From contig JBAIAA010001116.1 of assembly GCA_037893245.1 (NCBI GenBank), positions 124,001 through 188,000 of the forward strand: DNA of 64,000 bases. The letters are read 5' to 3'. Shown piece after piece: positions 10,572-64,000 of this stretch. The notes below the pieces were generated by a model. That model made no database searches. It saw nothing but the letters and a program-made list of their open reading frames with translations, and was not told the DNA's origin. Numbering within the stretch: position 1 is the first letter of the stretch; each line of letters begins with the position of its first letter. This DNA comes from Crossaster papposus (lineage: Eukaryota; Echinodermata; Asteroidea; Velatida; Solasteridae). Position numbers and translations under genes: made by a program.

Positions 10572-11119
10572 TTTTCAAATCAGAAAGACTGATTATTTGT
10601 ATAATAATGCATGTATTTTTGAAGGTACCGGTAGGTGATGTAATTCATCATTTTTATAATACTATAATTAACCACCAGCACTTAAAATCGAGTGTGTACC
10701 ACTTAAACGAATGCTTCTAAGGCCTACTGGTAGGTCACACCCAGGGTTGTAGCTACGCTGGCCGGCGCTGGCCGACGGTAGCCGGCATTCAACATCACCG
10801 GCCGGCACAAATTTTGCTGAATTACATCGCGATTTTGTATTTTTTGCTGCATCGCATCGCAATTTTGTACGTGTCCATTTGTATATGCTGCATGCCGCAA
10901 TCGCTGATGCACGCTTACAGGTTTTCCGGTTCTCAGACCAAAATATTCTGACAAATATATCTGGTTCATTAGTTCAGGGGACCAGACTATCCGACGTCAC
11001 GTCGTTTTGTTTTTTTCAATCATAGGGAACGTGCTATCATCCAACTGGCCAGCCGGCGATGTACGTACATACATGTACATTGTACGTGTGTACATGTACA
11101 TGCCAGTGTTGTAGTCGAG

Positions 11120-11757
11120 TCACCTATGTCGAGTCCGAGTCCCGAGTCCCGAGTCACTTGATCCGAGTCCGAGTCCCGAGTCACTTGGTCCGAGTCCGAG
11201 TCCCGAGTCACTTGGTCCGAGTCCGAGTCCCGAGTCACTTGGTTCGAGTCCGAGTCCCGAGTCACTTGATCCGAGTCCGAGTCCCGAGTCACTTGGTCCG
11301 AGTCCGAGTCCCGAGTCACTTGATCCGAGTCCGAGTCCCGAGTCACTTGATCCGAGTCCGAGTCCCGAGTCACTTGATCCGAGTCCGAGTCCCGAGTCAC
11401 TTGGTCCGAGTCCGAGTCCCGAGTCACTTGGTCCGAGTCCGAGTCCCGAGTCACTTGGTCCGAGTCCGAGTCCCGAGTCACTTGGTTCGAGTCCGAGTCC
11501 CGAGTCACTTGGTTCGAGTCCGAGTCACGAGTCACTTGGTTCGAGTCCGAGTCCCGAGTCACTTGGTTCGAGTCCGAGTCCCGAGTCACTTGGTCCGAGT
11601 CCGAGTCCCGAGTCACTTGGTTCGAGTCCGAGTCACGAGTCACTTGGTTCGAGTCCGAGTCACGAGTCACTTGGTTCGAGTCCGAGTCACGAGTCACTTG
11701 GTTCGAGTCCGAGTCACGAGTCACTTGGTTCGAGTCCGAGTCACGAGTCACTTAAAT
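11120..11757. repeat. 27-bp minisatellite, about 22-23 units
   Basis: Units read close to GAGTCCCGAGTCACTTGG followed by TCCGAGTCC. Position-specific variants (TTCGAG or TCCGAG, GATCC or GGTCC, CCC or CAC) cluster along the array, with CAC variants grouped at the right end. Because 27 is a multiple of three and the unit lacks stops, both strands are open over more than 230 codons; those frames are artefacts of the repeat. The unit is an expansion of the GAGTC motifs in the hAT end that contains it. Confidence 0.92.
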
Positions 11758-11807
11758 TTAAATAATTAAATAGTTAAAACACTTAAGCTATGGTCATTTT
11801 ACCCAAA

Positions 11808-39277: not shown

Positions 39278-41108
39278 CACTGAAAAATCACCTGGGTTAA
39301 AATTTAACCCAAATGGGTTAAATTTTAACCCATTAACAGGGTGAAAACTGCAACTACCCGTTATTGGGCTGTTTCAACCCAATTGATTGGGTTAGAATTT
39401 CTGGGTAAATATAACCACAAACTGGGTTAATACCATGAACCAATTTAGTTATATCGACTGTAAAATTGGGTTATATTAACCCATAAGCTTGGGCTATCGA
39501 GTGTTTTTGGGTTATATTTACTCCACACTTGAGGTAAATATAACCACACGATTAAGTTACACTGCTGTGTTTGGGTTGCATCTACCCAAAATGTTGGGTC
39601 AATTTAACCCTAAGCTTGGGCTATGAATATGCTTGGGTTGTAATAACTTAAAACTGGGGGTCAATTTAACCCAATCTTTGTGATAAATCAATTTCTGTAG
39701 GAGTTAATTTAACCTAAATATTTAGGTAAAGCAACTTTCATGTGGAGTTAATTTAACCCAACCATTGCGGTAAAACAACTTTCCTTTGTAGTCAATTTAA
39801 CCCAACTATTGAGGTACAGCAACTTTTCTTCCGAGTACATTTAACCCAAATTTCATGATAAACATTATTTGTATATAATCAATTTAACTCAAACAATGAG
39901 ATAAAGCAACTTTTTAAGGTTGTGATCACTTCAATCTAATGGTTATAACCTAACCAGTTTTTAATCTTATTCAATATTTAGGATACTTTGTTACCTAGAA
40001 CTTGGAAAGATATTTTTTGTATTAACAAATTTGCATAATCAACATGTTTGCATAAATCGGTTACATTTAATCTAATATTTGAAGAATTTTAGTAATTGCA
40101 CGTTACATTTCAGTTGAGGCAACGAAATTTTGTGAAGCATGCAGTTGTACAAATGTGAAACAAAGACACAATTTAGCATTACTTGAGCAGCACCAGTGTC
40201 ATCCACATTAAGTTTTGCATTTTAATTAAATGAAACAAATTTACTTGTATGCGTTAGTTCTTTAAAAAGGGGTTAAACAGAATCAGTTTTGAAATTCCAT
40301 ATTAAAAAAAAAATGCAGTTCCCATATAAAATCGACTATGGTTAATTGTAAAATACAAAGCTTGCTTTGGGCCAAATCCCTATTCCATTGTTTTTGTTTT
40401 ATCTATTTCTGATTCTGTTCATTTTAAAAGGACTGGCAGAGGTCATGTTAACATCAGTTTAGGCACAATGTATTAAGGTTGGAGTGCAATTTTAAAACTT
40501 CTTTACTGTACTATATAGCCAAGTGAAATCACATTTTCGTAAATAAAATGGCAAGTAAAACTCCTTCAATGTACATGTACTAGCAATGCCACATTGAACT
40601 ATCATAAAAATGATCCCTAACCCTCCCAAATCCTCAAAAATCAATGTGATTTTGCATACACCCTAGGGAGTTAAGGTTACGAACAATGTGTAAGTGAAAC
40701 TTTTCCACTGTACTCATCAAGTCACATCAAACTATACTGTAAAGCTAATTGTATTGTGAAACTTTTTTAACTGCCAAGTCAAATCAAACTATAGCTTTTT
40801 AATTGAAACTTCTTCACTTTAATTATACTAGCCAAGTAACATCAAACTATTTTGTTAGTAAAACGTCTTAACTGTACTAGCTTTTAAAGTGAAACCTCTT
40901 CATTTAGGATACACCATTTGCAGATATCAAAAAAAAATGTACTACCGAGTTATTAAGAAACTTATTTGAAAGTAAATAATTTGTGTTGGCATCCAGCAAA
41001 ATGATACAAATAACAATTTCTTACAGATTACACATATCATGGAATATATACCTATAGACCAGGAGCCAGGGGGGTCAGGGTAGCTGGAAAGCTAACCAAT
41101 TTGTCTTT

Positions 41109-42257
41109 TTGGGTGACCTCGAGGAACGCATGCTTGCCTTAGCACCGTGCCGTCCCTGGATCTGGTGGAGATACATTGATGATGTATTTTTCATATGGAC
41201 CAGTGATGAGGACAGTCTGCTGACTTTCACTAATCACATGAATTCCTTCCACAGGACCATCAAGTTCACATCAGAGTACTCACATCATCAGGCCCACTTC
41301 CTGGATGTCACCATCCGCAAGGAGGACAACTTAATAACCACTGATCTGTATTCTAAACCCACAGACACACACCAGTATCTCCACTCCTCCAGCTGTCACC
41401 CTAGGCATTGTAAGACTGGTATAGCATTTAGTCAAGCCCTCAGACTCAAAAGGATTTGTTCTAACGACTATGATTTCTCCCGCCATTCACAGATACTGAA
41501 GAACAACTTGGTTGCCAGGGGTCACAGTTCCCGCCAAGTTCAACGTGCCATTGCCAGAGCCAAAGCCGTACCCAGAAATTTGGCTCTAAAGGTAAAGGCC
41601 CCCCAGGCTAATGCCAAACCCATGATCCCCCTGGTGACTACCTTTCACCCCAGTCTCCCTTCCCTTCGCAAAATCACCAACGACAGCCATCACATTCTCC
41701 ACACTTCAGATCGCCTTGTCCGGGCCATCCCCGACAGCCCTGTATTGGCCTATAGACGCCCTCAAAATTTACGAGACCTCATTGTTCGAGCCGAAGTTCC
41801 CAGCTTGGATGCATCTCCCCCCATCCAGCACGGAACTTTCAAGTGCAGCTCTAGATGTGTGGTCTGCCAGATCCACATTCAGGAGTCTGACTCCTTTTCT
41901 GGCCACTCTTCTGGTACTACTCATAGAATTATTGGTAACATCACTTGCAGTACATCTAATGTCATATATCTCATCTCTTGCAGGTTTTGTGGAGTTCAGT
42001 ATGTCGGAGAGACTAAAAATGCCCTAAAAAAGCGTTTCTACGGTCATCGATCGACTGTCAACACCAAGAAACTGGATACCCCTGTAGGACATCACTTTAA
42101 CCAGCCTAACCATTGCATTTCTGATATGATTCTTCAGGGCATAGAATCACTTGGCCATCGGAAAGACTCAGTCCGCCTCAGCCGGGAGAAAGTCTGGATG
42201 AATCGTCTTCGGACTATTCAACCACATGGGCTTAACATCCAACTAGGAAATGATTAA
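41109..42257 (+). CDS. Penelope-like polyprotein fragment: RT end plus GIY-YIG endonuclease
   Basis: A frame of 382 codons opens inside the reverse transcriptase; its first codons are simply where the truncation falls. R-Y-I-D-D-V-F (about residues 21-27) is the Penelope catalytic block, followed by H-F-L-D-V and D-L-Y-S-K-P motifs. A linker with paired cysteines (C-S-S-R-C-V-V-C) leads to N-V-I-Y-L-I-S-C then V-Q-Y-V-G-E-T and K-R-F-Y-G-H, a GIY-YIG nuclease. Together they identify a Penelope/Neptune-type element. About half of the RT is missing, so it cannot be active. No internal stop. Confidence 0.9.
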   Translation: MGDLEERMLALAPCRPWIWWRYIDDVFFIWTSDEDSLLTFTNHMNSFHRTIKFTSEYSHHQAHFLDVTIRKEDNLITTDLYSKPTDTHQYLHSSSCHPRHCKTGIAFSQALRLKRICSNDYDFSRHSQILKNNLVARGHSSRQVQRAIARAKAVPRNLALKVKAPQANAKPMIPLVTTFHPSLPSLRKITNDSHHILHTSDRLVRAIPDSPVLAYRRPQNLRDLIVRAEVPSLDASPPIQHGTFKCSSRCVVCQIHIQESDSFSGHSSGTTHRIIGNITCSTSNVIYLISCRFCGVQYVGETKNALKKRFYGHRSTVNTKKLDTPVGHHFNQPNHCISDMILQGIESLGHRKDSVRLSREKVWMNRLRTIQPHGLNIQLGND

Positions 42258-44790: not shown

Positions 44791-45494
44791 CTGTAAAAGG
44801 CTGAAGTGAAATCACAACCAGTCAAGGCGTGGTAGCCAGGCAGAGCTCTGGCAAGTCCGGGCTTGCATTCTTCAAGGACGTCAGCGATGTTGGTGACATT
44901 GATATATCTTCTGCTATTTCCCATGCCACAGTCCATTATGATGTTTGTCATGGACCGTACTTCAGGACGTTGCTGTCCGAGTGTACCGATCAAAATGACC
45001 AACACATCAGTGTCTGATGCCCTGACAATGATGTTTCCGGCAGTAATGTTTATAACATGGAATGCTATCAGGGTATCCGCTTCTTCATGGTCACCTTGGA
45101 GATGTGGTGGCCTGGTCACATTGACATGTTCGAGTTCATCAGGCACGTACTGGAAGCACTCTCCACCGTAAGATGCAACCAAAGTCTTTCCTCTGAACAT
45201 GTTCCAGTAGTGGTCCTTTGCCCATTCTTTGAGGAGAAACTTAGCAAGTTCATTTTTGAAGACGCCATTGGTCAGCAGCTTTTGTCCACGCTGTCGTATT
45301 GTTTGCTCAGGCCCCGTTATGTTATAGGCAGAATCCACTGCACCTCGTAGCTTCCTCTCACTGTCCTTGATGGAGTTTTCGACATATTTGTCGAGACAAA
45401 CATGTACTTCCCTTGCCCTGCCTGAACACATCACTGACAACATGGTCCTAGCAATAGACGCATACGATGCTCCCATGTTGGTTTGTGAAATCAC
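44791..45494 (-). pseudogene. Academ gene, XPG/FEN1-like nuclease exon
   Basis: The minus-strand frame contains H-E-E-A-D-T, then R-A-S-D-T-D-V-L-V-I-L-I, then H-A-L-T-G-C-D-F-T-S-A-F-Y. I read these as the acidic metal-binding residues of a PIN/XPG nuclease and the G-C-D of its helix-turn-helix, comparable to the LLGCDY block of FEN1. The fold assignment is inference from spacing. The exon ends at donor TTACAG|GTAGGC (44790), which phases with 44407-44617. At its 5' side the upstream frame stops four bases into this frame, so a +1 shift separates nuclease and core. No ATG opens this frame. Confidence 0.65.
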
Positions 45495-47506
45495 TGAATG
45501 TAGGAGAAGCCGCCGTCATATATTTCTATAAAGCTTCTTGGCAAGTCGAACTCTGCGATCATTTCGGTCTGCAGCGACTCAAGCTTACTCAACAAAGCTG
45601 ATTTGACTGTTTTGACATGTGCCCCGTCACAGTGGGCAAGTGACAATGGGTATTGGGTGATTGGGTACGATAGAACATTCCGAAGGTCAAATCCTGTCTT
45701 CTGAGCGATGACCACAACCATACGTATGAACATGTCCCTGAGGCTTTCTGCGTTTGTTTTGGCTGTCTGCAAGGCGGGTGTCTTGGCTTTCTTCTTCTTG
45801 ACATTTTCTGCAGCAAAGTTATGTATCGGGGTCCGTTTTACTGTCTTGAGAAAACGACCGCTGTTGCTGTTCCATTCCGCTGTGAATTTCTCTCTTGCCT
45901 CTGGGCCCCGTTTGAGTGTATTCAGTAAATACGACTCAGTTGCCTTTGATGCTGTTTGGCCAGTTGCAATGTTCACCAAGGCTGATGGAGCATCATCAGT
46001 GAAGGGATTGCAAAATTCGTCGATTTTTGCACTGAGTGTTGCCATTTGATTGTTGTCCTTTTTTATTCTAGAAGGACGGCACTGAGCAGCTGCACTTTCC
46101 CCTTGTTCGAGTCCTGCAAATGACCTCAGCTCAGTGACAGCCATAGCTCTCTGTGTCATGGTCAACGACCATCTCCGCATGGCACTCTCTGAATTTCTGA
46201 AGGCAACAATCCCTTTCATTTGTGATGCCGCATCACGGTTCACAGATTGTTCCAGAGACAGATCTACAGCGGATCTGCTGTAATCTTTCCTTGTGCGTCT
46301 GATTGAAAACGCACCATCCTGCAGAATGTCACGTAATTTTGGATCGGAACTTTCCAACTTCTCCAGGAAGAGCGTTCCCCATCTGGCATAATTGGGGCGG
46401 TTGAGGGCGAAGAATACAGCCAGCATCGTTGGAAAGACATCAATGTAGCCAGTGACATCGTTGGTCTTGACACATCTCTGCAACTCTCTGTGAAGGCGAT
46501 TGATTAGAAAGATGTAAATCGCCCAGTACTGAGCCATTGATCCATGGATGCCTTCAAGGATTGAATGAAAGAAGTCCTCGTACTTCTGCATATGCCGAGT
46601 TACAACTGGATCAGAAAGATGTGCTTCTACTTGTCTTACATCAGAAGGAACTGTGCTCATCACCTGTTGCAATGACTCGTATTCCTCTTGAGGCAAGTCC
46701 AGAAGAAAACGGTCATACAGCTTCTGCTCCAATACATTAGCCAGCAATTCATGAATCCGGGTGCATCGGTTATAGAATTTGCCTTTGATGAATCCCATCA
46801 TCGATCCTTCCGCCAAAACATCTGCCTCTGTGAGTATGAATTGGATTCCGCTGTCGTTGATGAGTGTGCCAACTGCACCGTAGAAAGCTAACTCAATATG
46901 AAAATTTCCCAGCAGTATCAGTAGCTTGTCAAACAATGGACTTTCAATTGTCTGGATTGAGTACGCTTTCAATGCAACAGCCAGATCGTATGTGACAACT
47001 GCATAGTCCTGCTCGGTTTCCTTTTCCACATTCATTGTACGGATCATAGTCTCCCTGACCACATCATTGTTTGTTGGTGATCTCGATATAGGGTCCATGT
47101 ATGAAATTCGTTGCAGTGGCAAGGGGTCCTTGATGAACTGGCTGACAAACCCAGCATGCAGAGATGTGTTGCCCTCTCTCAACTTCCAAAACCAATACAG
47201 ATCCAATGGTTTCAGAGGAATGGCAGTTTCAGCAGTCTTTGGGGCTGTAGAACTCACAAACACAGCCTTGTTTAGGAGCTTCCTAAATGGAGGTATATCC
47301 CGTTCATTTCCTGTAAACTTCCGTCGGTTTTTTCCATCTCGAAATTCTGTTGGCTTAACAGTTGCTTGTCTGTCATCCTGGGGCACATTCTGGTAAGTAT
47401 GGCCGACAGTGGCATGTAGGGTTTGTTTCCCATCTAATGTTTCTACATTCGCATCATTATTATCCCAGACACTGGCAGTTTCCAGTCTCCAGTCCTTTCG
47501 ATTCAC
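45491..47506 (-). pseudogene. Academ gene, large core region
   Basis: This is a 671-codon minus-strand frame without internal stops, rich in Leu, Arg and Glu. It includes Y-W-F-W-K-L-R, W-A-I-Y-I-F-L-I-N-R-L-H-R and N-R-P-N-Y-A-R-W-G. The last motif is common to many uncharacterised animal and fish proteins that also end in the HEEADT/GCD nuclease. This region probably includes the Academ-type transposase core, but I cannot assign catalytic residues. Its 5' edge overlaps the preceding frame by about 47 bases and its 3' edge overlaps the nuclease frame by 4, consistent with single-base frameshifts rather than introns. Confidence 0.65.
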
Positions 47507-48248
47507 TGTAGCTGATACAATGTCCAGCTCTGTTTAGAATCTGCAGGGATAATTTAGATCCAGTGATGGATGATAAACCTAAACCCACAGCAGTGTGCTT
47601 CCATGGCTTGACGGTACCACGAGTAACATTATAAATGGCATCCGAGGCCATTGAAGTCACCTTACGGTCAACTGTGTCCTTGTTGTACGGGCCATGAAAA
47701 CTCGGTGTGAGACCACCCAGGAGACTCCTGAAAAACAGGTCCAACTGCGCTGGTATCTCTGGGGCGCATTCCTTCAAATTCTGCACTGTTGCTGGATTTG
47801 GAGTCTTGGATTTTGATAGCTGCATGATTTGAGAGCGGAGATGAAGAGCAGCCCATCTTAGTTTGTTGTCCTGTTCATGTTTTTCAGCATCATCGTGAAG
47901 GCGGTTCCTTGCATCTTCTTCTGTCAGGGCAGAACTGTAAACGAAGTTTCCTCTCCGATTGTCAGCTAATTTGACTGCGATCTGTTGTCCAAAACTGTCA
48001 TTGAGCTTCCTAAGGAGGTTCTGGGCCGTGTAGGAGATAACGTCTGCCTTATCTCCACCGTTACTGGTGTACTCTGCTTTATACATTTCAAGTAAAGTGG
48101 AGACTAACATTGATCTTTCATTCACAATAGCCTCGTTTTGGATAGGTCCAAAGTGAAGCAGTTGCTCTCTTGTGGTAGGACTGAAAGGTGCATGCCTGGC
48201 TTGAACCTTCTGTTCGCTGATCATCGGTCTCGATAAGAAACGTGGCAC
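47460..48248 (-). pseudogene. Academ gene, region between zinc motifs and core
   Basis: A 262-codon open frame with H-F-G-P-I-Q-N-E-A, L-F-F-R-S-L-L-G-G and L-N-R-A-G-H-C-I-S-Y. These are recognisable stretches of the same large protein family. Coding resemblance is lost just after G-H-C-I-S-Y, where the core frame takes over at about 47500-47520. The upstream join at about 48200-48248 also needs a frame change. No introns with GT-AG ends fit these two junctions. Confidence 0.6.
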
Positions 48249-51722: not shown

Positions 51723-52847
51723 CTAAAGACAGACAGTAATTAGTTAGATGGTCAGGCACTAGTCTAGTTTGTGTATCGTCGTACTCGCAGGCTAGGCCTA
51801 ACGCGTAGACCGGGCAGTTTGTTTAGACTGTCTATAAAAGAATACACCATAACATCACAGTATTTGAACATATAGTATTTCTTAAAATAATCATCATCCG
51901 CTGCATACTGAAAACATACCTTCAAATACTGGAAAAAAACTCTCCCATTCCCCATTCTTCGAGGAGCTTCTGGATTCCTTTTCCATGTCCATCCGCCATT
52001 GCGCCACGTACGATATAAAATATATTCGGTCGCGTCACGCGTGCATCAGCATGTGCATGCTGTACATGTACTGTACATGTACACTCGCGTACGCGGTGTA
52101 CATAATGTATACATTATTCCGACGGTGTTTTCCCCGCTTAAACGCGGTTGTCACAATCACATGACCTTGCGAGCGCGAAAATGTGGTAAACTTAACTCAA
52201 AAAGGGTGTAGTATTTACTAAAGGTGTGTTAATTATGTTACAGTAACCCAGCATGGAAGTTAGTAGACAGTAGTAGTGGTTTATTTTTAATGCAAACTTG
52301 CCGCCATCCTCTATATTCCTTTAGGCCCTATAAACTTATACATGTAGTATAAAACGCCTTGCCTTGCCAGTGCCTTACCGAAACCCAGCCAGTCAGACTA
52401 AAATTTCACTTTAACAAAAATCTGGGTTATTCGCGATTATTTTTAATTCATTGCAATTCTTTCAACCATGCATGCACAAAATAACAAAATAACAAGTGCA
52501 AGTCTTAACAAAGTGTTATTCACGATCATTTTAACCCCCCAAAACAACCCGTGTTTGGTTACATAGAATCTTAACTAAGTAAATCTTAACCCACTAATTT
52601 AACCTTGGAAAATTTACTTATATAACCCAATTTGGGTTATTAAAAATCAATTTTACCCAAATATATAACTCAAGTTCCATTACTCAAAATTTTAACCAAG
52701 TAGGTTTTAACCCAGATATTTAACCCAGAAATAAATGCTGATTTAACCCACAATGGGTTTTTCGTGATTGATTTAACCCAAAATATAACCCAAAATGGGC
52801 AACCCAAATTTTGGGTTATGATTTAACCCAGGCGAATTTTCAGTGTA

Positions 52848-54523
52848 GAAACATTCCTTACTTACAAAAGAAAATTCAACAAAACCTTGATAATATTAAT
52901 ACATGGTGTGAAAGATGGGGATTTAAACTATCTATCCCCAAAACAAATGCTGTCCTTTTCACAAATAAACTGAAATACCCACCTATTTCTTTACACATTT
53001 ATAATTTAGCCATCAAAATGAGCTCCTCTGCGAAATTTTTAGGACTAATTTTCGACAATAAACTCACCTGGAAAAATCATATTGATAATATTATCACCAA
53101 ATGTAAAAAAAGACTCAATATCTTGCGTTGCATCTGTGGCAACTCCTGGGGAGCTGAATGCAAAACGCTCTATCGACTGTATACGGCACTTATAAAACCC
53201 ATCCTTGAATATGGATGTGAGGCTTTCGACTCGGCCTCCCCGACAATCAAACATAATCTGGACACTATCCAATATCAAGCTTTAAAGATTTGTACAGGGG
53301 CCATCCAAAGTACCCCACTTTACAGACTTCAAACCGAATGTGGAGATCCTCCCCTAGCATTACGTCGACAGTTTTTAAGCGATCTTTACGGAATTAAAAT
53401 TAACTCTATAAATAACCACCCTAATGATCACTTCAACCGTGATAACTGGCAAAAACACTATTTTGCCGACAAATGGAATTCCTCTACACGTTACATCCCC
53501 TTTGAAGCAAGAATTTCCCATTATCCTGGTCTAAACACCTTTCCTTTAAATGACCCCTTTCCTTTCTGGCACTATACTAATCCTCAAATCTCAACTGAAA
53601 TCCACTCTCTCGTGGCACATACTGACAGTATACATGAAAAAAGAAATATTAGTCTGGAACTAATCAACACTAAATGGAACAACAGTCTTCATATTTATAC
53701 AGACGGCTCACTTAATCCGACCCATGATACGGTAGGCTGCGGAGTACACATCCCACAACTGAAATATTCTAAAGCTTCCCGACTCAACAACGGAGTGTCT
53801 ATCTTTACCTCGGAACTCTTTGCCATTCTTCTATCTCTGGAATGGATTGAAGATGTTAAACCCCTTTATTCCTGCATCTTTAGTGACTGCCTCAGTGCCT
53901 TACAAGCTATTTCCAAACATTTTCCTGTTCATAAAATTGTCTGTGATATACGACATACTCTTATCAATATCCGTAATCAAGGTAACATTGTTAATTTCGT
54001 TTGGATACCTAGCCACTGCGGTATCCCTGGAAATGAACAAGCGGATCAGATCGCTAAATCAGCAACAGACAAAAACAATGTTGACTACTGTATCCCTCTC
54101 TTAGACTCGGAACTTAAACATACTCTTAAAACACATCTCAAGGAAAAGTGGGCTTCCACCGTTCCTAATTTAGATCCCAATAACAACTTCAGCTATGATG
54201 TTTCTCTATCTTTTACTAACTGGGGCCTGCAACGACCCAAAGAAATAATCTTACACAGACTCCGCCTAGGAACATGTAGAGGTTTGAAAACTTTCATGCA
54301 CAGAATTGGTCAACACCCTGATGGTCTATGTGAAAGCTGTGCATGTCCAGACAATGTTGCACACTTTATTCTCAAATGCTGCAAATACACGACTCAACGA
54401 CTATCACTCCAAAAATCACTGAATTTTTCAAATGACCAAATGAACCTTACACAAATTCTTGGACCAAAACGCAACTGCAATCACATCATTAATTATGTTA
54501 AAAACTGTAATATCAATATCTAA
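52848..54523 (+). CDS. LINE ORF2, C-terminal part: thumb, RNase H, zinc knuckle
   Basis: This part continues ORF2 after the TA element; the first bases (GAAACATTCC) pick up the frame left at 39277 when one TA is counted. It has the RT thumb (K-L-S-I-P-K-T-N-A, F-L-G-L-I-F-D) and then RNase H with catalytic residues in Y-T-D-G-S-L, T-S-E-L-F-A, F-S-D-C-L-S and W-I-P-S-H-C-G-I-P-G-N-E-x-A-D. A C-terminal C-x2-C-x7-H-x4-C knuckle follows. An ATG-like codon further left belongs to the inserted element. No lesion. Confidence 0.9.
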
Positions 54524-54973: not shown

Positions 54974-55294
54974 GCCGCAGCCGTTCATAGAAATTTAGAA
55001 TCCATGCGACAAAAGGAGGTGCTGATTTGAAACTAGAGTAGTAGGGAACGTGCCGCTTGTAGACCAAATCTTAAAAACTCAATTTGACCCGATAACAAAA
55101 AGGTGTCACTTTTGAACCAAATCTTAAGTCTGATAACAAATAAAACTCACAAAAAAACTATCTTGTGAGAGCGCCCTCTATGGGTTAAATAAAAAACAAT
55201 AAATGACAAACTCTAAAATTAATTTAAAAAAAAGCACCCTCAACAGAGGGCGCTATTTTATTTTATTCTTATTTATTACAGTTTTAATAATAAC
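54974..55294. other. Noncoding stretch before the 55-bp array
   Basis: No gene seen. AGCGCCCTCTA at about 55168 and AGAGGGCGCT at about 55243 form a short inverted pair. Confidence 0.4.
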
Positions 55295-55755
55295 TCTAAA
55301 ATTAGATTTTTTATATAAATGATGTCATAAGGGTACTGCAGTACCCTTCTCTAAATATAGATTTTTTATATAAATGATGTCATAAGGGTACTGCAGTACC
55401 CTTCTCTAAATATAGATTTTTTATATAAATGATGTCATAAGGGTACTGCAGTACCCTTCTCTAAATATAGATTTTTTATATAAATGATGTCATAAGGGTA
55501 CTGCAGTACCCTTCTCTAAATATAGATTTTTTATATAAATGATGTCATAAGGGTACTGCAGTACCCTTCTCTAAATATAGATTTTTTATATAAATGATGT
55601 CATAAGGGTACTGCAGTACCCTTCTCTAAATATAGATTTTTTATATAAATGATGTCATAAGGGTACTGCAGTACCCTTCTCTAAATATAGATTTTTTGTA
55701 TAAATGATGTCATAAGGGTACTGCAGTACCCTTCTCTAAATATAGATTTTTTTGT
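55295..55755. repeat. 55-bp tandem repeat with a perfect 20-bp palindrome, 8 copies
   Basis: Eight copies of AAGGGTACTGCAGTACCCTT start at 55329, 55384, 55439, 55494, 55549, 55604, 55659 and 55714, exactly 55 bp apart. Between palindromes lies TCTCTAAATATAGATTTTTT then ATATAAATGATGTCAT. Copies are identical except for one or two bases in the last. There are no unique spacers, so it is not a CRISPR. It lies about 0.7 kb from the virus-like block, so it may be a protein-binding iteron, part of the element terminus, or a plain satellite. Confidence 0.93.
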
Positions 55756-56482: not shown

Positions 56483-56643
56483 TTATTGTGAAGCTGAAAG
56501 TTTTTCGATAATTCCTTTTTTTTCCTTCAAAACCAACTCTTCCACGCGTTTTTTAATCTCGGATTCCATATCGCTCTCACCTTTCTTTTCTGACAGCAAG
56601 CTGTCGGACCTGATAGCCTCTTTCATATCGTTAAATTGCCTCA
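56483..56643 (-). pseudogene. Glycine-rich membrane protein gene, C-terminal half (split)
   Basis: The minus strand reads Q-F-N-D-M-K-E-A-I-R and then a Lys/Glu-rich helical tail (K-K-R-V-E-E-L-V-L-K-E-K-K) to a stop at 56483. It continues, in frame, the gene whose N-terminal half is at 58473-58925. The 1.83 kb AACGTT-rich element lies between them. An AATAAA-like signal overlaps the stop region. I recognised the continuation because related proteins in animal virus-like elements end with such a charged helix. Confidence 0.7.
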
Positions 56644-58472
56644 CCCAGCAAACACAAAACGTTTAAAAAACGTTTTTTAAACGTTTAAGTAGGTCCGCTA
56701 GGTCTTCGTCCTAAATAAACGTTTAAAAAACGTTATTTAAACGTTTAATTAGGCCCGCTAGGTCTTCGTCCTAAATAAACGTTTAAAAAACGTTTTTTAA
56801 ACGTCCGCTACGTCTTGATTTTTAACAAACGTTTAAAAAACGTTTGGAGAACATCTAATTTTGACCTAATATTTGCCCCAAAGCAAAGGTTTTTTTTAAA
56901 CGTTTACAAAACGTTTACGAAACGTTTGAAAAAGACGATTTTATTTCTGGACGTTTAAAAAACGTTTTCTTTACGTCCAAGTCAAATAAAAACTAATTGT
57001 AATTAATTATTGTTTTTTAATATTATGATTTAATATGATTATTATTTTGATGATTAAATTGAGTAGCCTAATGATGGTGATTATGATGATGATTATGATT
57101 ATGATGATCGATGATGATTATGATTATGATGATGATCATGATCGTCATCCTCATCGTGTGGCCCATATGGTCGTCGTCGACGTCGTTGATGTACGTAATT
57201 GTTATATTTTGTGACATCGATATCATGCGGTGCGTTGGCGCGGCCTGGCTGGCCGCCTACGTACAGCGTGCATGCCATCGTTTATATTCAAACGCTATGT
57301 TGGATGTTCTTGAAAGGTTTTCTGAACGTTCTGAATAGGTTTTCTGAACGTTCTTAAAAGGTTTTCTAGACGTTCTTAAAAGGTTTTCTGAACGTTCTTA
57401 AAAGGTTTTTTGAACGTTTTTAAAAGTTTTTCTAGACGTTCTTAAAAGGTTTTTTAAACGTCTAAAGGTTTTCTAGACGTCCTAAAAAGGCACTGCAAAA
57501 ACTGTGGTGTTAAAATTTTAACACCAATGTTTTTTTAATCTTTTGGAATGAACATTGGTGTTAAAATGAAGTAAAATGATTCTTGAAGTATTAGTTTCAA
57601 ATCAAGTACTGGTGTTACGTACTTTTGGTGTTAAATTTGACCTAGTGCGCATGCGTGTGTGAAATAAAGCCCTCTGATTGGTCGATAAGGAATTATGGTA
57701 GGGGCCTATATGTTAACAATAGTCGATGTTAAATTGTTGTATTTAGTCCAAAAACCCATTTATTTTACCATAATATGTAATTATTTAAACGATTCCATGA
57801 TTGAATTTTGATTTTTGTGCAAACATAGTTAAAAATTCGCGTTACATTTTATTCGTTTTCAAATTTTGACATTATTCATAAAAACTAGCTGCGACTTCGT
57901 CGTGGACAAAAAAGCGTAGTATAAAAGTAACAACGGCAATGGCTATGTGTGTAGTACGTATTCAGTAGGAATAGATTATTATTGTATATGGATGTGTAAT
58001 GTGTAATAAGTCAGTTCTTTGTAATATTTCATTACGTAATTTGTCCATGCAGTTAATATGTACAAAATGATAGTGTTAAAACGGTATGATCCTCAAACTG
58101 GTGTTATTCAACACCCAATTTTTTTGTAGTGTAGACGTTCTTAAAGGGTTTTCTAAACGTTCTTAAAAGGTTTTCTAGACGTTCTTAAAGGTTTTCTAAA
58201 CGTTCTTAAAAGGTTTTCTAAACGTCTAAATGTTTTCTGGAGAGCTGGTCTGGAAAACGAATACGAGACAAGGTTTTAAATTGGTTTTTTAAACGTTTTA
58301 AATTGGTTTTTTAAACGTTTTAAATTGGTTTTTTAAACGTTCAATAAAAACGTTTTTTAAACGTCCAAAACCTACCACAAAAAAACGTTTACAAAACGTT
58401 TTTTTTGAACGTTTAAAAAACCAATTTAAAACGTTAAAAAAACGTTCAGAAAACGTCCGATTGTTAGCTGGG
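56644..58472. mobile_element. AACGTT-rich nonautonomous element splitting a viral gene
   Basis: The element begins CCCAGCAAACACAAAACG and ends with the near complement (CGTCCGATTGTTAGCTGGG), flanked by CA on both sides (56642-56643 and 58473-58474). Both sides are built of AAACGTTTAAAAAACGTT and TTCTAGACGTTCTTAAAAGG-type repeats that pair with each other. No coding sequence. It carries a second element at 57491-58131. The superfamily is not established; a 2-bp target duplication is what the flanks suggest. Confidence 0.75.
57491..58131. mobile_element. Small nested element, CACTGCAAAAA ends
   Basis: Ends CACTGCAAAAACTGTGGTG and its diverged complement (CCAATTTTTTTGTAGTG), with GGTGTTAAA/TTTAACACC motifs at both ends. 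TA follows the right end (58132-58133) but the left flank lacks TA. It interrupts the TAGACGTTCTTAAAAGG array, and its end structure echoes the CACTGAAAAATCACC elements. Confidence 0.6.
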
Positions 58473-58925
58473 CAGTTCCTTCAACACCAAAGCGTACTCT
58501 TCGTGGGATATATCGCCGTCCTCTATAGCTTGAGAAATAAGATCTCTTACGCTGTTGAGCTTAGCCTCGGCCAAGACTCTAATCTCGTCGTGTTTTTTAG
58601 CTTTACGTCTAAATCGCTTGCTAAAATATTTTAGCAAGAGCGCGGCGCAACCAAAACTCAAGGCTACTCCCTCTAACGCAAAACCAACGGGTGACGTAAT
58701 GACGCCGCTTATAGCTGCGATTCCCAAACCCCCACAAATTGCTCCACTCATCTCGGATAGGGTTTCTGTAGTAGACAATGTCGTAATTAACTTGCCATAT
58801 TTTTTACACAACGCGCTTCGCTGTTCTCGTTGCGCCAATATATCTTTTTGAACTTCTTCGATCTTTTGCAATCGAAACACCCTCGTTTCGTCGTTTTTTA
58901 GATCAGGATAAATACTAGTCGTCAT
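58473..58925 (-). pseudogene. Glycine-rich membrane protein gene, N-terminal half (split)
   Basis: From ATG 58925 the frame runs 151 codons to the insertion, then stops after two codons of foreign sequence. A coiled charged N-terminus is followed by a long Gly/Ala/Ile-rich hydrophobic stretch (G-G-L-G-I-A-A-I-S-G-V-I). Then comes R-K-A-K-K-H-D-E-I-R-V-L-A-E-A-K-L-N and D-I-S-H-E-E-Y. Proteins with this K-H-D-E-I-R/A-E-A-K-L-N pattern accompany capsid genes in virus-like elements of many invertebrates; their role is unknown, possibly virion membrane or internal. Start is preceded by TAAAATG, 13 bp from the next gene. Confidence 0.75.
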
Positions 58926-58938
58926 TTTACAAAAGTAA

Positions 58939-59631
58939 CTAAAATATTTCTACGTTAAAAATTATATCTTTACCTCTATTATCTAAGACCTCACCAAGAC
59001 CGTTTTTTAACGAAAACGTGAGGCTGTTTATTTTACCAGCTACCAACTCTTTCGAACACTTGTTATAGTTGATATAAATTGGATCTTGGGGATTGTTTGA
59101 ACGAGCAGCATCACCATGTACGGGTATACTCTCCAACAGGTTAGTTTGTTTTCCACCAACAAAATTTGAATGCGTAGACAGTTCTTCACAATGTAAAAAG
59201 ACCGCGTTGTAAAGATTTAAGCTAAATTTTCCATAATGACTACCACCATTGAGCCAACCCCTAGGTAAACCTAAAAGTTTACACAAATTACTCGATAGTT
59301 TTATGCGATTTTGGTCGGGAATGGATAGATAAAACAGTTCATCAGATAAATACTCTATAGATATATCGCGAAAATCTTTTAGATGATATTTCAAAGAATA
59401 AAGATTCCACCTATCTGGAAAAATTTCAATTTTTTCATGATCGACAATTATATTTAACAACAGATCAAAACTCTCCCAATGTATCGACGCTCTTTTTTCG
59501 AGGTTATAAAAACCCAAGTCTAACGCAAAGTTGTTTAACTTCATGCGACGGTCACCCCCGACGTTATCTATAGGTCGCGATAATTCAAAGGTCTGCTCGT
59601 TATCCGTCATGACAAACGTATGAGACTGCAT
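58939..59631 (-). CDS. Penton/minor-capsid-like protein, paralogue 2
   Basis: 230 codons, opening M-Q-S-H-T-F-V-M-T. The C-terminal half has L-H-C-E-E-L-S-T-H-S, G-K-Q-T-N-L-L-E-S-I-P and L-T-F-S-L-K-N-G-L-G-E-V-L-D. These are a hydrophobic-Cys strand, a G-x-x-x-x-L-L-x-x-I-P turn and a closing beta-strand, which in polinton-type penton proteins (single jelly roll) occur in this order. The assignment rests on pattern and genomic context. It shares most of both ends with the neighbour at 59645-60337; the middle has diverged. Compact gene order, 13 bp to the gene on each side. Confidence 0.65.
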   Translation of the reverse strand: MQSHTFVMTDNEQTFELSRPIDNVGGDRRMKLNNFALDLGFYNLEKRASIHWESFDLLLNIIVDHEKIEIFPDRWNLYSLKYHLKDFRDISIEYLSDELFYLSIPDQNRIKLSSNLCKLLGLPRGWLNGGSHYGKFSLNLYNAVFLHCEELSTHSNFVGGKQTNLLESIPVHGDAARSNNPQDPIYINYNKCSKELVAGKINSLTFSLKNGLGEVLDNRGKDIIFNVEIF

Positions 59632-59644
59632 TTTACAAAAGTAA

Positions 59645-60337
59645 CTAAAATATTTTTACGTTTAAAATTATATCTTTACCTCTATTATCTAAGACCTCGC
59701 CAAGACCGTTTTTTAACGAAAACGTGAGGCTGTTTATTTTATCGGCTACTAACTCTTTTGGAGAATTGTTGTATTTGACATAAATTGGATCTTGTGGGTT
59801 GTTTGAACGAGCTGCATCGCCCGATAAAGGTATACCCTCCAACAGGCTAGTTTGTTTTCCATTAACAAAATTTGAATGCGTAGACAGTTCTTCGCAATGT
59901 AAAAAAACCGCGCTGTATAGATTTATGTTAAATTTTCCAAAATGATGACCACCCCTAGCCAACAAGGGTAAACCTAAAAGTTTAGAAATATTTTTTGATT
60001 GTTTGAAATTCACAAAAGATTCAGAGGTCTCTAATGACAAATAAAATAGTTTATCGTTTATCGGAGTAATGGTCAAAGGTTTAATATCATCTTTAAACCG
60101 ATCTTTGAAAGAATAAAGATTCCATCGACCAGGTGTGATATCTATCGAACCGTCTTTAAGATCTCCTGGAGAAGAGAAAATATAATATAACCTCTCTATT
60201 TGTTTGACGTTATAAAAACCCACGTCTAAAATAACGCTGCTTAACTTAATGCGACGGTCGCCCCCGACGTTATCTATGGGCCGAGGTAGCTCAAAAGTCT
60301 GCTCTTTTTTGGTCATGACAAATGTATGCGACTGCAT
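59645..60337 (-). CDS. Penton/minor-capsid-like protein, paralogue 1
   Basis: 230 codons with the same N-terminus and C-terminal strands as paralogue 2 (H-C-E-E-L-S-T-H-S, L-L-E-G-I-P-L-S-G-D). It diverges at about residues 40-120, where it has a longer F-x-S-P-G-D-L-K-D loop and an additional Q-S-K-N-I-S-K-L-L-G motif. Likely product: a vertex or minor capsid jelly-roll protein. Start ATG 60337 lies 38 bp from the divergent capsid gene. Different middles on shared ends suggest duplication followed by specialisation, or recombination. Confidence 0.65.
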   Translation of the reverse strand: MQSHTFVMTKKEQTFELPRPIDNVGGDRRIKLSSVILDVGFYNVKQIERLYYIFSSPGDLKDGSIDITPGRWNLYSFKDRFKDDIKPLTITPINDKLFYLSLETSESFVNFKQSKNISKLLGLPLLARGGHHFGKFNINLYSAVFLHCEELSTHSNFVNGKQTSLLEGIPLSGDAARSNNPQDPIYVKYNNSPKELVADKINSLTFSLKNGLGEVLDNRGKDIILNVKIF

Positions 60338-60375
60338 TTAAAAAAAAAAAAAATAATAAAACGTTACTATAAAAA
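60338..60375. promoter_or_regulatory. 38-bp divergent promoter between penton-like and capsid genes
   Basis: Only 38 bases separate two divergent start codons. On the plus side CTATAAAAA abuts ATG; on the minus side an A/T run gives TTTAAATG. There is no room for a conventional animal promoter with a start site 30 bp downstream and a 5'UTR, so initiation is probably at or near the start codon as in several large DNA virus late promoters. That mechanism is inference. Confidence 0.6.
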
Positions 60376-61644
60376 ATGAACGCGACTTATGGAAACAAAC
60401 TAAATCCACACAGACGCCTTAAAAATCCTCGGGGTATAAAAGGCAACCGCCAGACTGTCGTCGTAACTCACAATCCTAGCACGATCGACGCGAACGACAA
60501 ATTAATAGTCAAGTTTCCGTCGTTGAGCTCTGACGACGTGATCGTCCCCGGTTCGGCAAAACTAGCTTTTAATATCGATCTAACCTCGGACGACGACGCC
60601 AATCGAAGTCTGTTTAAAAATCTAGGACGAAATCTCGTAAAACAAATAAGAATATGTATCGGCGGCCGGGAGATCGTAAACTTGACCGACGCCGACGTTT
60701 ATAACATTTTTAAAGATCTTTGGTTGCCCAAAGGTATCAGAGATCACTACACCGGAAACGAGATTGCCAACATATCGAGCCTGCGTGTGGGTACCGGTAA
60801 CGCGGTTGCCGGTGACAACAGTGGGAAAGACAAAGCGATAGCGGATGCCCTTGGAAACAGATTTTGTATACCGCTAGACTTTGAAATGCTCACAGATCAT
60901 CAACCGTTTTATCCATCCGCTCTGAACGACCAACTGTCTTACGAACTTACTTTTAACGATTATGCCAAAGTCGTAAATTCTACCGACGCCGCAGCGAGTT
61001 ATAGCATCTCTAACTTGGCGCTAGAATATGAGATCGTTGCCAACAAGCACTTGGCTCAAATCTTAGCTCAAAAATGTCTCGACAAGACGCAGTTTTTGTT
61101 TGAAAGGATTCAGAGACACGAAGTAAGATCTATCGATAAATCGGACACCGTTTGGAACTTTAATTTAAACGTGGCGGTTAAAAGCCTCAAGGGTATACTG
61201 TTTTTGTTTAAAGAAGCGACTACAAAAACCCCTGAACTATTTTATAACCCAAAGATAGACAAAGTTAGCGTGACGATAGAAGGAAAACCTAATCAACTCT
61301 ACAGTTCGGGTCTCAAGAGCTATCAACACTGGGAAGAAATCAACAAGTTCTTTGGAGACTCATCCACCGAGCTAGGGGCTGGTATATGTAAAGATTTAGG
61401 GTTAACGGGAATGGATATCGGTGATTATTTTTTAAGAAGATACGGACTTTGGTTGGATATGAGATCGACGGACGACAATAAAAATCACGGATCGGGTAAA
61501 CAAATCGGCGATATAAGCGGAGGAATCTCTATATTGATGGAACGCGAAGCTCAAACCGCGGGCGCTCTAAAGTGTTATGTCTTTTTGGTTATGGACGCGC
61601 AACTTAACATCCAAGGAGGTCGCTTGAGCAGCGTCAACTTTTAA
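60376..61644 (+). CDS. Major capsid protein-like (double jelly-roll candidate)
   Basis: 422 codons opening M-N-A-T-Y-G-N-K-L-N. Conserved-looking blocks include N-P-R-G-I-K-G-N-R-Q-T, D-D-V-I-V-P-G-S-A-K-L-A-F, F-C-I-P-L-D-F-E-M-L, and L-S-Y-E-L-T-F-N-D-Y near the middle. The pattern of a beta-rich half, I-P-L-D-F, then Y-E-L-T-F and a second beta-rich half matches proteins I know from uncharacterised animal-genome elements, which I read as virus capsids. It is shorter than polinton capsid proteins (usually about 600), closer to compact virophage or PLV types. Neighbouring ATPase and penton-like genes support the role. No lesion; TATAAA directly upstream. Confidence 0.75.
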   Translation: MNATYGNKLNPHRRLKNPRGIKGNRQTVVVTHNPSTIDANDKLIVKFPSLSSDDVIVPGSAKLAFNIDLTSDDDANRSLFKNLGRNLVKQIRICIGGREIVNLTDADVYNIFKDLWLPKGIRDHYTGNEIANISSLRVGTGNAVAGDNSGKDKAIADALGNRFCIPLDFEMLTDHQPFYPSALNDQLSYELTFNDYAKVVNSTDAAASYSISNLALEYEIVANKHLAQILAQKCLDKTQFLFERIQRHEVRSIDKSDTVWNFNLNVAVKSLKGILFLFKEATTKTPELFYNPKIDKVSVTIEGKPNQLYSSGLKSYQHWEEINKFFGDSSTELGAGICKDLGLTGMDIGDYFLRRYGLWLDMRSTDDNKNHGSGKQIGDISGGISILMEREAQTAGALKCYVFLVMDAQLNIQGGRLSSVNF

Positions 61645-61684
61645 AAAACTCGCCTATATAAAAAAACTAGTCTATATAAAAAAG
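61645..61684 (+). promoter_or_regulatory. Tandem TATATAAA motifs before the ATPase gene
   Basis: Two copies of CTATATAAAAAA (about 61652 and 61670) lie in the 40 bases between the capsid stop and the ATPase start. The second ends two bases before ATG. Confidence 0.55.
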
Positions 61685-62305
61685 ATGACGCCGCACTGCG
61701 CTTTAATATGTGGAAGAACAAACTCTGGCAAAACAAAGTTTGCGTTAGACTTGCTAGAAAACGAATATGCCAACAAATTTGAATACTTAGTGATCATATG
61801 CCCGACTCTGTCAAACAACAAAACGTATCACGAGAGACCTTGGTTTTTTAACGACCCCAACGTTTACGCGTGCGACCCCGACGTCGAAAATATGAACATG
61901 AACGAAGCCATAGACTTTTACAGAACGAAATTTAAAGGATTGCACACTTTGTTTTTAATCGACGACTGCAGCGCTTATCAAGCGATAAAATATCGAAAGG
62001 GTTCTAGAGGCGGTAGTAGTGTGTGTATGTTATCTAAATTAGCCTTTAGCGGTAGACACAATAACCACAGCTGTTGGTTATTGACTCAAAAATATAACAG
62101 CGTTTTAAAAGATTATCGCGAACAGACTCAATGGGTCGCTATTTTTTATTGCAAAGACAAAAAAAGTTTTGATAATTGCCTCGACGAAAATGATGTGGTG
62201 CCGGATAATAAAAGGCAAGGCATAAAACAATATCTCAAAGACACTCCCTATAGTAAATTGATTTTATATACGGATCCTCCGACTAAATGGTACTTGAGTA
62301 GCTAG
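61685..62305 (+). CDS. A32/FtsK-HerA-type DNA-packaging ATPase
   Basis: 206 codons. Walker A is at about residues 8-15 (G-R-T-N-S-G-K-T). Walker B is L-F-L-I-D-D at about 90-95, followed by S-G-R-H-N-N-H-S-C-W-L-L-T-Q (about 121-134), the sensor-like region with the L-T-Q motif typical of viral packaging ATPases. The length is normal for the compact versions in polinton-like viruses and virophages. It would pump the genome into preformed capsids. It is preceded by paired TATATAAA motifs and follows the capsid gene by 40 bp on the same strand. Frame intact; catalytic residues all present. Confidence 0.85.
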   Translation: MTPHCALICGRTNSGKTKFALDLLENEYANKFEYLVIICPTLSNNKTYHERPWFFNDPNVYACDPDVENMNMNEAIDFYRTKFKGLHTLFLIDDCSAYQAIKYRKGSRGGSSVCMLSKLAFSGRHNNHSCWLLTQKYNSVLKDYREQTQWVAIFYCKDKKSFDNCLDENDVVPDNKRQGIKQYLKDTPYSKLILYTDPPTKWYLSS

Positions 62306-62580
62306 TTGTAACCTAGTTGCGGTTTGTTGAGGTTTTGTTGAACAGCTAGTTGTGTTTTGTTGAGGTTTTGTTGAAGTTTTGTTGAACAGCTAGTTGTTAA
62401 GTACTTGCCAGCTAGTTGGGTTTTGTTGAGGTTTTGTTGAACAGCTAGTTGGGTTTTGTTGAACAGCTAGTTGGGTTTTGTTGAACAGCTAGTTGGGTTT
62501 TGTTGAACAGCTAGTTGGGTAGCTAGTTGAGTTTTGTTGAACAGCTAGTTGAACAGCTAGTTGCAACTAGTTTATCTCGC
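62306..62580. repeat. Minisatellite of GTTTTGTTGAACAGCTAGTT units
   Basis: Imperfect units of about 21-24 bp (GTTTTGTTGAACAGCTAGTTG with variants GTTTTGTTGAG and GGGTAGCTAGTT) fill the gap between the ATPase and the next gene. AGCTAGTT also occurs at the ATPase stop, so the array may have grown from the gene end. It is the only long spacer in the right part of the block. Confidence 0.85.
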
Positions 62581-62588
62581 TATATTAA

Positions 62589-63239
62589 ATGTTCGTGCTG
62601 ATCGATCTGTCGCTCAAATTTATTATAGCGTCGGCCTTGTGTATTTTATCTTACGAATATTTTTCTCTAAAAAATAAATTATATCGTCTTATAAAAATGG
62701 AGCTGTCTACTTTAGACTCTAGCACGCCGCAAACGGAAAAACATAAAACTAGACTGTTGGGCGTAGTATCAGCTGGTGATTCTAAAAAGTATTTGGGTAA
62801 AGAATTTAGCCAGGGAGATATAGAAAACCTAGACGCGAACAAACAAGAACAAATGTACAACCATTACGAGGCTCGACTAGGTAAAGAAATGATTACTAGT
62901 TTGGGTAACTGCATGCTGGGGATTTACTCGAGAGTTTTAGGCGCGAGTCTACCTATGATCAAACCCCTAGGTGTCAGTCTACGAGTAGACTCGGAAGACA
63001 CACTCACCAAAGATCTAGAGGAAGATCCCGTTATATCTAGCTCGATAGCCAGCCTACTTTGCGAAGTTTATTACAACTACGGAATGTTGTTGTCGCCGTT
63101 AGTAGGTGTCTTGATAACATCTAAACATTTAGTTATTAACAAAAATAATTATCTTATAATAAAAGATGAGTCAACAAGAGAGCCCGGTCCAAGAGACTCC
63201 AAAAGTCCTAAAAGTACAGACGGTGACGACCAAAACTAA
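62589..63239 (+). CDS. Hypothetical viral-block protein with N-terminal membrane segment
   Basis: 216 codons from ATG 62589 (preceded by TATATTAA), or 180 from ATG 62697 (preceded by TTATAAAA, a better match to the other genes). The longer form adds a hydrophobic segment (L-K-F-I-I-A-S-A-L-C-I-L-S) likely to be a membrane anchor. The body is mixed helical with E-A-R-L-G-K-E-M-I and a second hydrophobic patch (L-L-S-P-L-V-G-V-L-I). The tail is charged. No family recognised. Its 3' end overlaps the next gene by 74 bases in another frame. A structural or membrane role fits its place, but this is a guess. Confidence 0.6.
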   Translation: MFVLIDLSLKFIIASALCILSYEYFSLKNKLYRLIKMELSTLDSSTPQTEKHKTRLLGVVSAGDSKKYLGKEFSQGDIENLDANKQEQMYNHYEARLGKEMITSLGNCMLGIYSRVLGASLPMIKPLGVSLRVDSEDTLTKDLEEDPVISSSIASLLCEVYYNYGMLLSPLVGVLITSKHLVINKNNYLIIKDESTREPGPRDSKSPKSTDGDDQN

Positions 63240-63528
63240 AAATCCCGGTAGAGTAAAACAAGGCAAGGCATTAGCGGAACACAACAAAAAGAGAAAAGAA
63301 CAAATTGTCAAGATGCAAAATATAGACGTGAGTACTACTCCTCCTTCTTCTCTTCCCTCTTACGCGACAGTTGGGCCGTTGTCGCTGGTGGTTGTTGTAG
63401 TTTTAGGAGGACTCTATATATGGAGCCAAAAAGTACCCTCACCACCAAAACCTCAGCCAGCCCAAGAGAGCCCTCTTCAGCCAGAGACTCCTTCTTCTAC
63501 ACCTTCAAATTTTGTAGAAATGGAATAA
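63166..63528 (+). CDS. Small single-pass membrane protein of the viral block
   Basis: 120 codons, start preceded by TTATAATAAAAG. A basic N-terminal part contains K-N-P-G-R-V-K-Q-G-K-A-L-A-E-H-N-K-K, a motif I associate with small proteins in animal virus-like elements. One transmembrane segment follows (about residues 71-88, L-S-L-V-V-V-V-V-L-G-G-L-Y-I-W), then a Pro/Ser-rich tail. The layout resembles minor virion or membrane-penetration proteins, but function is unknown. It overlaps the preceding frame by 74 bases. Confidence 0.65.
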   Translation: MSQQESPVQETPKVLKVQTVTTKTKNPGRVKQGKALAEHNKKRKEQIVKMQNIDVSTTPPSSLPSYATVGPLSLVVVVVLGGLYIWSQKVPSPPKPQPAQESPLQPETPSSTPSNFVEME

Positions 63529-63553
63529 AAAATAAAAAGAAATATATATATAA

Positions 63554-63784
63554 ATGGATACTAATAGCATCGTCAACAATCTCTATCACGCCGCTATCAT
63601 CTCTATGTTAAGCGTGGGGTTTACCATGTTTAGTAAAAAACTGTTGAAGATCAAACCGGCCGATCTCGACAAGTTGAGCGTGGAAGATGTAGCGAAACTA
63701 ACGGCTATGATAAGCGGATCGATGTACGTAAAAACCTGGCTGGTATCGCAAAATATACTTCCACCAAATATTTTAAAACTTTAG
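63554..63784 (+). CDS. Small hypothetical protein of the viral block
   Basis: 76 codons; the start is directly preceded by ATATATATATAA. It has a hydrophobic N-terminal segment (A-A-I-I-S-M-L-S-V-G-F-T-M-F) and an amphipathic K-P-A-D-L-D-K-L-S-V-E-D-V-A-K-L stretch, ending V-S-Q-N-I-L-P-P. Proteins of this size and pattern accompany similar capsid genes elsewhere to my knowledge. No function assigned. Confidence 0.6.
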   Translation: MDTNSIVNNLYHAAIISMLSVGFTMFSKKLLKIKPADLDKLSVEDVAKLTAMISGSMYVKTWLVSQNILPPNILKL

Positions 63785-63798
63785 TTTGTTTTATATAA

Positions 63799-64000
63799 AT
63801 GGCTGAAGGTGGAGAATTTGAAGACGTAGAAGACTACGAAGAAGAAGACAACGAGGTAGAAGAGGACAATCTAGAATTTGACGACTATAACGATTACTCT
63901 CTCGACAACACAACGGCGATAGATCCAGCCGTTGTTCAAGCCCGTGGGGATACCTTAGAACAAGCGAGACGTTTGTTTATTAATAATCCAATAGTCGAAC
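63799..64000 (+). CDS. Acidic protein N-terminus, runs off the window
   Basis: ATG 63799, 11 bases after TTTTATATAA, opens an uninterrupted frame of 67 codons to the window edge. The first 45 residues are mostly Asp and Glu (M-A-E-G-G-E-F-E-D-V-E-D-Y-E-E-E-D). The rest becomes more balanced (D-P-A-V-V-Q-A-R-G-D-T-L-E-Q-A). Its strand, spacing and TATA motif make it the next gene of the block. The remainder is outside the window, so family is unknown. Confidence 0.65.
   Translation, partial: MAEGGEFEDVEDYEEEDNEVEEDNLEFDDYNDYSLDNTTAIDPAVVQARGDTLEQARRLFINNPIVE

Follow-up and report, generated by a model that had tools for sequence, protein, structure and literature searches.

A probable Polinton/Maverick-type virus-transposon in many near-identical copies in the genome of Crossaster papposus

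The Crossaster papposus DNA analysed here is a stretch of 64,000 nucleotides (the window; C1115:124001-188000, in a genome assembly of 1.02 Gb in 1841 contigs). It holds the left half of a 17,077-bp element that is very likely an endogenous, recently amplified virus-transposon of the Polinton/Maverick type. The features that carry this assignment are: inverted ends; 5-bp target duplications; an rve integrase; an A32-type ATPase; a predicted double-jelly-roll capsid protein; the gene set; and many near-identical dispersed copies with a low ratio of non-synonymous to synonymous differences (pN/pS). A preliminary description had proposed an integrated DNA virus or virus-derived transposon, which the integrase, inverted ends and target duplications bear out.

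Ends, copies and insertion sites

The element runs from window position 55037 to C1115:196113, its right end falling outside the window. The features on which the argument rests are the following.

55032..55036, no strand: left target-site duplication (5 bp, ACTAG), with the right copy from C1115:196114 on, past the element
55037..55210, plus strand: left terminal inverted repeat (TIR), beginning AGTAGTAGGGA
58939..59631, minus strand: penton-like gene B, 230 aa, a candidate penton that differs between copies
59645..60337, minus strand: penton-like gene A, 230 aa, a candidate penton, tandem paralogue of B and adjoining the capsid gene
60376..61644, plus strand: major capsid protein gene, 422 aa, with a predicted double jelly roll nearest the nucleocytoviricot type
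61685..62305, plus strand: A32-like genome-packaging ATPase, 206 aa, Walker-type, by Pfam match

The left TIR matches the right end (C1115:195940-196113, minus strand) at 98% identity over 174 nt. It starts AGTAGT and so carries the AG/AGT end motif of Polinton/Maverick TIRs. The preliminary description had placed the start of a virus-like module at 56483. The left boundary of the element is in fact 55037, and the segment 56644-58472 was inserted later and is missing from other copies.

A genome search with the TIR, in which 40 of 779 first-look candidates were scored, allowed both ends to be fetched for 16 elements. Target duplications flank all 16 (exactly 5 bp in 15, 6 bp in one), and the distance from TIR to TIR is 14.8-17.1 kb in all except the C676 element, where it is 33.0 kb. 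The same 14 flanking bases lie on either side of nine of the elements, some on the opposite strand. Identical flanks indicate a single insertion that was multiplied along with neighbouring DNA, so that the 16 elements represent 8 sites. The elements with common flanks and duplication are those on C1613, C1372, C1273, C1067, C905, C610, C390, C287 and C557; on all of these contigs but C557, a second, partial copy of the capsid gene lies 385 bp on. Here, a larger host segment carrying one element seems to have been multiplied.

The capsid gene has at least 40 full-length matches in the genome (scored from 40 of 384 first-look candidates); the contigs that hold them reach 4.1 Mb. Twenty-seven of these copies are open and nine share a stop at codon 307; the others comprise one with a stop at codon 43, two without a normal stop, and one match of 1270 bases that was not read. 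The nine shared-stop copies were considered as a lineage that had amplified with its capsid gene broken, a reading set aside because their common flanks indicate one insertion copied together with the DNA around it. Among the 39 copies of equal length, the mean pairwise difference is 1.56%. For the ATPase, four of eight copies are intact over the window length, three align over 612 of 621 bases with no stop, and one is frame-shifted. The pN/pS values are 0.114 for the 27 open capsid copies (bootstrap 0.062-0.183) and 0.176 for the eight ATPase copies; both are descriptive, the copies being partly non-independent and the calculation made without a tree.

Capsid protein and packaging ATPase

The preliminary description listed open frames for a penton-like pair, a capsid candidate, a Walker ATPase and five further genes, all of which are present where it had placed them. 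These frames are not chance openings: at E<=1e-3 the capsid protein has 2351 relatives among 8000 scored candidates, the best match sharing 58% identity along its full length, and the ATPase has 465 among 494 candidates.

The jelly-roll fold anticipated for the capsid candidate is recovered by modelling, which yields a predicted double jelly roll backed by structural matches. In this fold comparison, the best solved-structure matches are nucleocytoviricot capsid chains, with PBCV-1 chains among the best; the first named entries of a second match list are of the same type, and an adintovirus protein stands there at rank 27. Double-jelly-roll capsid profiles also support 26 of 32 capsid relatives. 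By its predicted fold, the capsid protein is thus closer to the giant-virus type than to the adenovirus hexon. Searches of PDB by sequence gave no match for the capsid protein or the ATPase. A search of PDB with the capsid profile returned only LDL-receptor-related protein 2, in two weak matches (E 0.49 and 0.59).

The ATPase passes the Pfam threshold for Pox_A32 (PF04665; 25.8 bits against a cut-off of 22.8). A match of the neighbouring genes to cellular families would have spoken for a different origin; this neighbour instead belongs to a viral packaging family. Among the 120 matches listed for each protein, the capsid and ATPase lists have nine longest-contig sizes in common, where jitter would give 0.16; elsewhere, too, the two genes therefore probably share contigs. 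Proteins of Mytilus coruscus and Mytilus edulis (P0239, P0242) are among the ATPase relatives and are labelled RNF213 in their source records; on members of a packaging-ATPase family this label is probably a misannotation.

Integrase and polymerase-like frame

The 10 kb that follow the window (L010) contain the rest of the last window gene, an overlapping 132-aa frame without an ATG and, further on, a 441-aa frame (minus strand), a 143-aa frame (plus), an integrase of 332 aa (plus) and a polymerase-like frame of 1259 aa (minus). The integrase (C1115:190957-191955) matches rve (PF00665) at E 2.8e-10. A C-terminal chromodomain, an adintovirus trait, was sought in it, and Pfam at E<=0.1 listed only rve and rve_3. 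The 1259-aa frame carries what we take to be family-B polymerase motifs, assigned by eye. Both Pfam and PHROGs find an endonuclease-VII-like segment in this frame, and Pfam also gives a weak zinc-finger match. Of the three genes that the preliminary description had suggested looking for to the right, an integrase and a candidate polymerase are present there, and a protease was not recognised.

These parts suggest a life cycle. The polymerase, judging from its family, would copy the linear element. The ATPase would package the DNA into an icosahedral particle formed by a double-jelly-roll capsid with penton-like vertices, which would also hold several small membrane or core proteins. The integrase would then insert the DNA into a host chromosome through a 5-bp staggered cut. 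Transfer from host to host may likewise be expected from the families represented.

A relative in another assembly

A scan of a genome collection with the capsid alignment returned one locus (L001, JAADDH010000017.1), a 4602-bp contig binned in a Diapherotrites archaeon metagenome-assembled genome (MAG); the same scan with the ATPase alignment returned no relative. On one strand, L001 carries relatives of the capsid protein (40-43%), the ATPase (56% over 41 aa) and P0006, the product of a window gene listed below (31%), in that order, and on the opposite strand a relative of the polymerase (37-56%). The other window and L010 proteins searched had no match in it at E<=1e-3. P0006 and the polymerase thereby gain support as members of one element family. 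The contig is probably mis-binned eukaryotic or viral DNA.

Alternative explanations

Several results weigh against a Polinton/Maverick-type virus-transposon. Alone, the window capsid protein reaches only E 0.08 against PF16903, under the cut-off. Neither Pfam nor PHROGs assigns the 1259-aa frame to a polymerase family at E<=0.1, and the polymerase-like protein has no PDB sequence match. The penton query gave no relatives at E<=1e-3 among 409 candidates. Four scans of IMG/VR contigs, which used the capsid protein, the ATPase or an alignment of either as query, found no relatives. No protease family was found in the 15 frames scanned, although a highly divergent protease, or one in a short frame outside this set, may have escaped notice. 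Most genes have intact frames, as the preliminary description had said, with the exception that two are broken in the window copy.

A plain transposon, moving by its integrase and polymerase with the capsid genes copied along as relics, would account for the 13 of 40 capsid copies that are not open as read, nine of them with one stop codon in common, and for the partial second capsid gene downstream at eight of the nine shared-stop places. The ends of eight of the nine stop-bearing copies were examined; these eight have one flank and duplication in common, and so look like products of host duplication, not transposition. The pN/pS values of the open capsid copies and of the ATPase are, moreover, those expected if the particle genes are used between jumps, and the relic explanation is accordingly unlikely. 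The fold of the capsid model, with its nucleocytoviricot matches, and the A32 family of the ATPase could also be taken to indicate that part of a giant-virus genome had entered the host DNA. Such a fragment would not be expected to have inverted ends and target duplications, an integrase of its own and several sites of insertion, which makes this origin very improbable. Still less probable is an assembly error that joined a contig of an exogenous virus or a symbiont to host sequence, a suggestion that could draw on the relative binned with an archaeal MAG; it conflicts with capsid copies on contigs as long as 4.1 Mb and with 16 elements whose matching duplications lie at 8 different sites.

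Comparison with known systems

Virophages such as Sputnik and mavirus have a double-jelly-roll capsid, and mavirus also integrates. With the Nucleocytoviricota, the element shares the capsid fold type (the predicted fold only) and does not share the large genome without integrase-made ends. Comparisons with published elements are by description. The Polinton genes listed by Krupovic et al. 2014 (PMC4028283) are pPolB, rve integrase, ATPase, capsid and penton; in that survey, an adenain-type cysteine protease could be identified in 74% of Polintons, whereas the window element has none recognised and has duplicated penton-like genes. For the capsid protein PY of the Hydra magnipapillata Polinton, the sole significant HHpred match was PBCV-1 VP54 (PMC4028283), a likeness to the PBCV-1 chains among the best structural matches of the window capsid. 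In Bellas et al. 2023 (PMC10120064), cnidarian capsid genes alone among those of metazoans fall outside the main Maverick-Polinton cluster.

Vertebrate Mavericks and adintoviruses (now Eupolintoviridae, PMC12451622) share with the element inverted ends, integrase, ATPase, capsid, a polymerase (a candidate one here) and purifying selection. The end motifs reported for vertebrate Mavericks include (AGT)2...(ACT)2 (Barreat and Katzourakis 2021, PMC8097293), to which the AGTAGT start corresponds. These elements differ in having 6-bp target duplications, against 5 bp in 15 of 16 elements here, and, like adintoviruses, in carrying a protease gene. The 'Meldvirus' Meld23486 (Buck et al. 2024, PMC11071296) comes from assembled sequencing contigs, whereas copies of the present element are dispersed in a genome and have ends and target duplications. 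No publication devoted to this element came up in a literature search, although one may exist.

The element thus joins Polinton-type mobility genes to a shell protein of predicted nucleocytoviricot type, and so is relevant to the unsettled relationships among virophages, adenoviruses and giant viruses. Its many recent, near-identical copies with clear ends make mobility, selection on particle genes and gene exchange directly measurable.

Penton-like genes

Genes A and B of the window are 62-66% identical in amino acids, depending on method, and 57-69% identical within one copy (five copies). For comparison between copies, frames of at least 200 aa were taken within 1500 bases upstream of the capsid gene in eight copies. 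This gave 13 frames, gene A in six copies and gene B in seven; gene A is interrupted by stops in two copies, and in the C676 copy a B-like stretch lies farther out, in the neighbouring piece. The mean amino-acid difference between copies is 18.7% for gene A (0.9-24.5%, 15 pairs) and 11.1% for gene B (1.7-19.1%, 21 pairs), against only 0.8% for the capsid protein of the same eight copies. Penton and capsid differences are uncorrelated (r 0.04 over the 15 pairs and 0.07 over the 21). Across all 13 frames, residues 41-140 show 42-68% identity per 20-residue block, and the remaining blocks 79-99%. The penton pN/pS values (0.48 and 0.42) are rough, since gapped rows were not codon-aligned and the "B" row of L003 is really gene A.

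The putative vertex gene is duplicated and variable between copies, probably through recombination. The pattern fits exchange among copies together with tolerance of, or favour for, change in one block. It is possible, though less likely than not, that the element diversifies its vertex protein by reshuffling the tandem penton-like pair, conserved at the ends and hypervariable in between, among its genomic copies. If so, gene conversion or recombination during replication would give near-identical elements different vertices, and the host genome would serve as an archive of vertex variants. Relaxed constraint on a duplicated gene is a simpler alternative that would explain the variability. Should the variable vertex genes be confirmed on independent insertions, they would offer a natural example of a virion surface protein diversifying rapidly within a genome.

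Other features of the window copy

The remaining features of the element in the window are as follows; hydrophobic segments were assigned by eye.

55294..55752, no strand: subterminal array of 55-bp units, 8.3 copies, matched in other element copies
56483..56643, minus strand: probable C-terminal part of the gene at 58464-58925, left of the penton-like pair, from which the nested insert separates it; membership of the same gene is inferred
56644..58472, no strand: nested insertion, 1829 bp, of AACGTTT-type repeats and a small dispersed element
58464..58925, minus strand: small-protein gene, 153 aa as read, with hydrophobic stretches; 3' end disrupted by the insert
62313..62563, no strand: tandem array of 11/22-bp period that separates the ATPase from the following gene
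62589..63239, plus strand: 216-aa gene (P0006) with an N-terminal hydrophobic segment; a relative also follows the ATPase in L001
63166..63528, plus strand: 120-aa gene with one hydrophobic segment
63554..63784, plus strand: 76-aa gene
63799..64000, plus strand: start of a gene continuing to C1115:188689, open at the window edge

Positions 56643 and 58473 are adjacent in at least six of the seven other copies compared, L017 being the one whose listed rows stop short of this junction. The AACGTTT repeats (56657-58456) were considered as a viral terminus, which the other copies rule out in favour of a later insertion. This insert cuts the 58464-58925 gene short in the window copy. The second broken gene is the last one of the window, the frame of which is split from its downstream part (C1115:188638-189036); in seven of ten other copies examined, a single frame spans both parts. 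A small repeat occupies 57497-58130 of the insert, and 57707-58011 matches the flank of another copy (L015) at 81%, which indicates that it is dispersed. Tandem arrays of 11/22-bp period occur both in the element (62313-62563) and in the insert (57306-58364).

For the small hydrophobic proteins, PHROGs gave tail-tape (E 0.00099) and endolysin-type matches. These, and a Pfam AI-2E_transport match (0.00052) under its cut-off, are presumed compositional.

The motif TATAWW lies within 30 nt upstream of 9 of 13 genes, compared to 6.7% of 208 other ATGs of the element, and TAAATG occurs at the start of 5 of 13, compared to 2.9%; the frame without an ATG was omitted. This contrast is overstated, because most control ATGs fall within coding sequence, where AT content is lower. 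Short TATA-like motifs immediately preceding the gene starts probably switch on expression.

Surrounding sequence

A G+C-rich repeat region at 11020-11769 is open in several frames on both strands. It contains the only tRNA call of the window (11486-11560), which may be spurious given this setting and given that Rfam at gathering scores lists nothing there. A long frame at 45494-47533 has a weak DUF6589 match, under the cut-off. Host retroelement frames lie at 37171-39297, 52772-54520 and 41058-42254, with matches to reverse transcriptase with endonuclease, RNase H and, just under its cut-off, GIY-YIG. To the right of the element is a satellite array of 201-bp units (L010 8328-10000).

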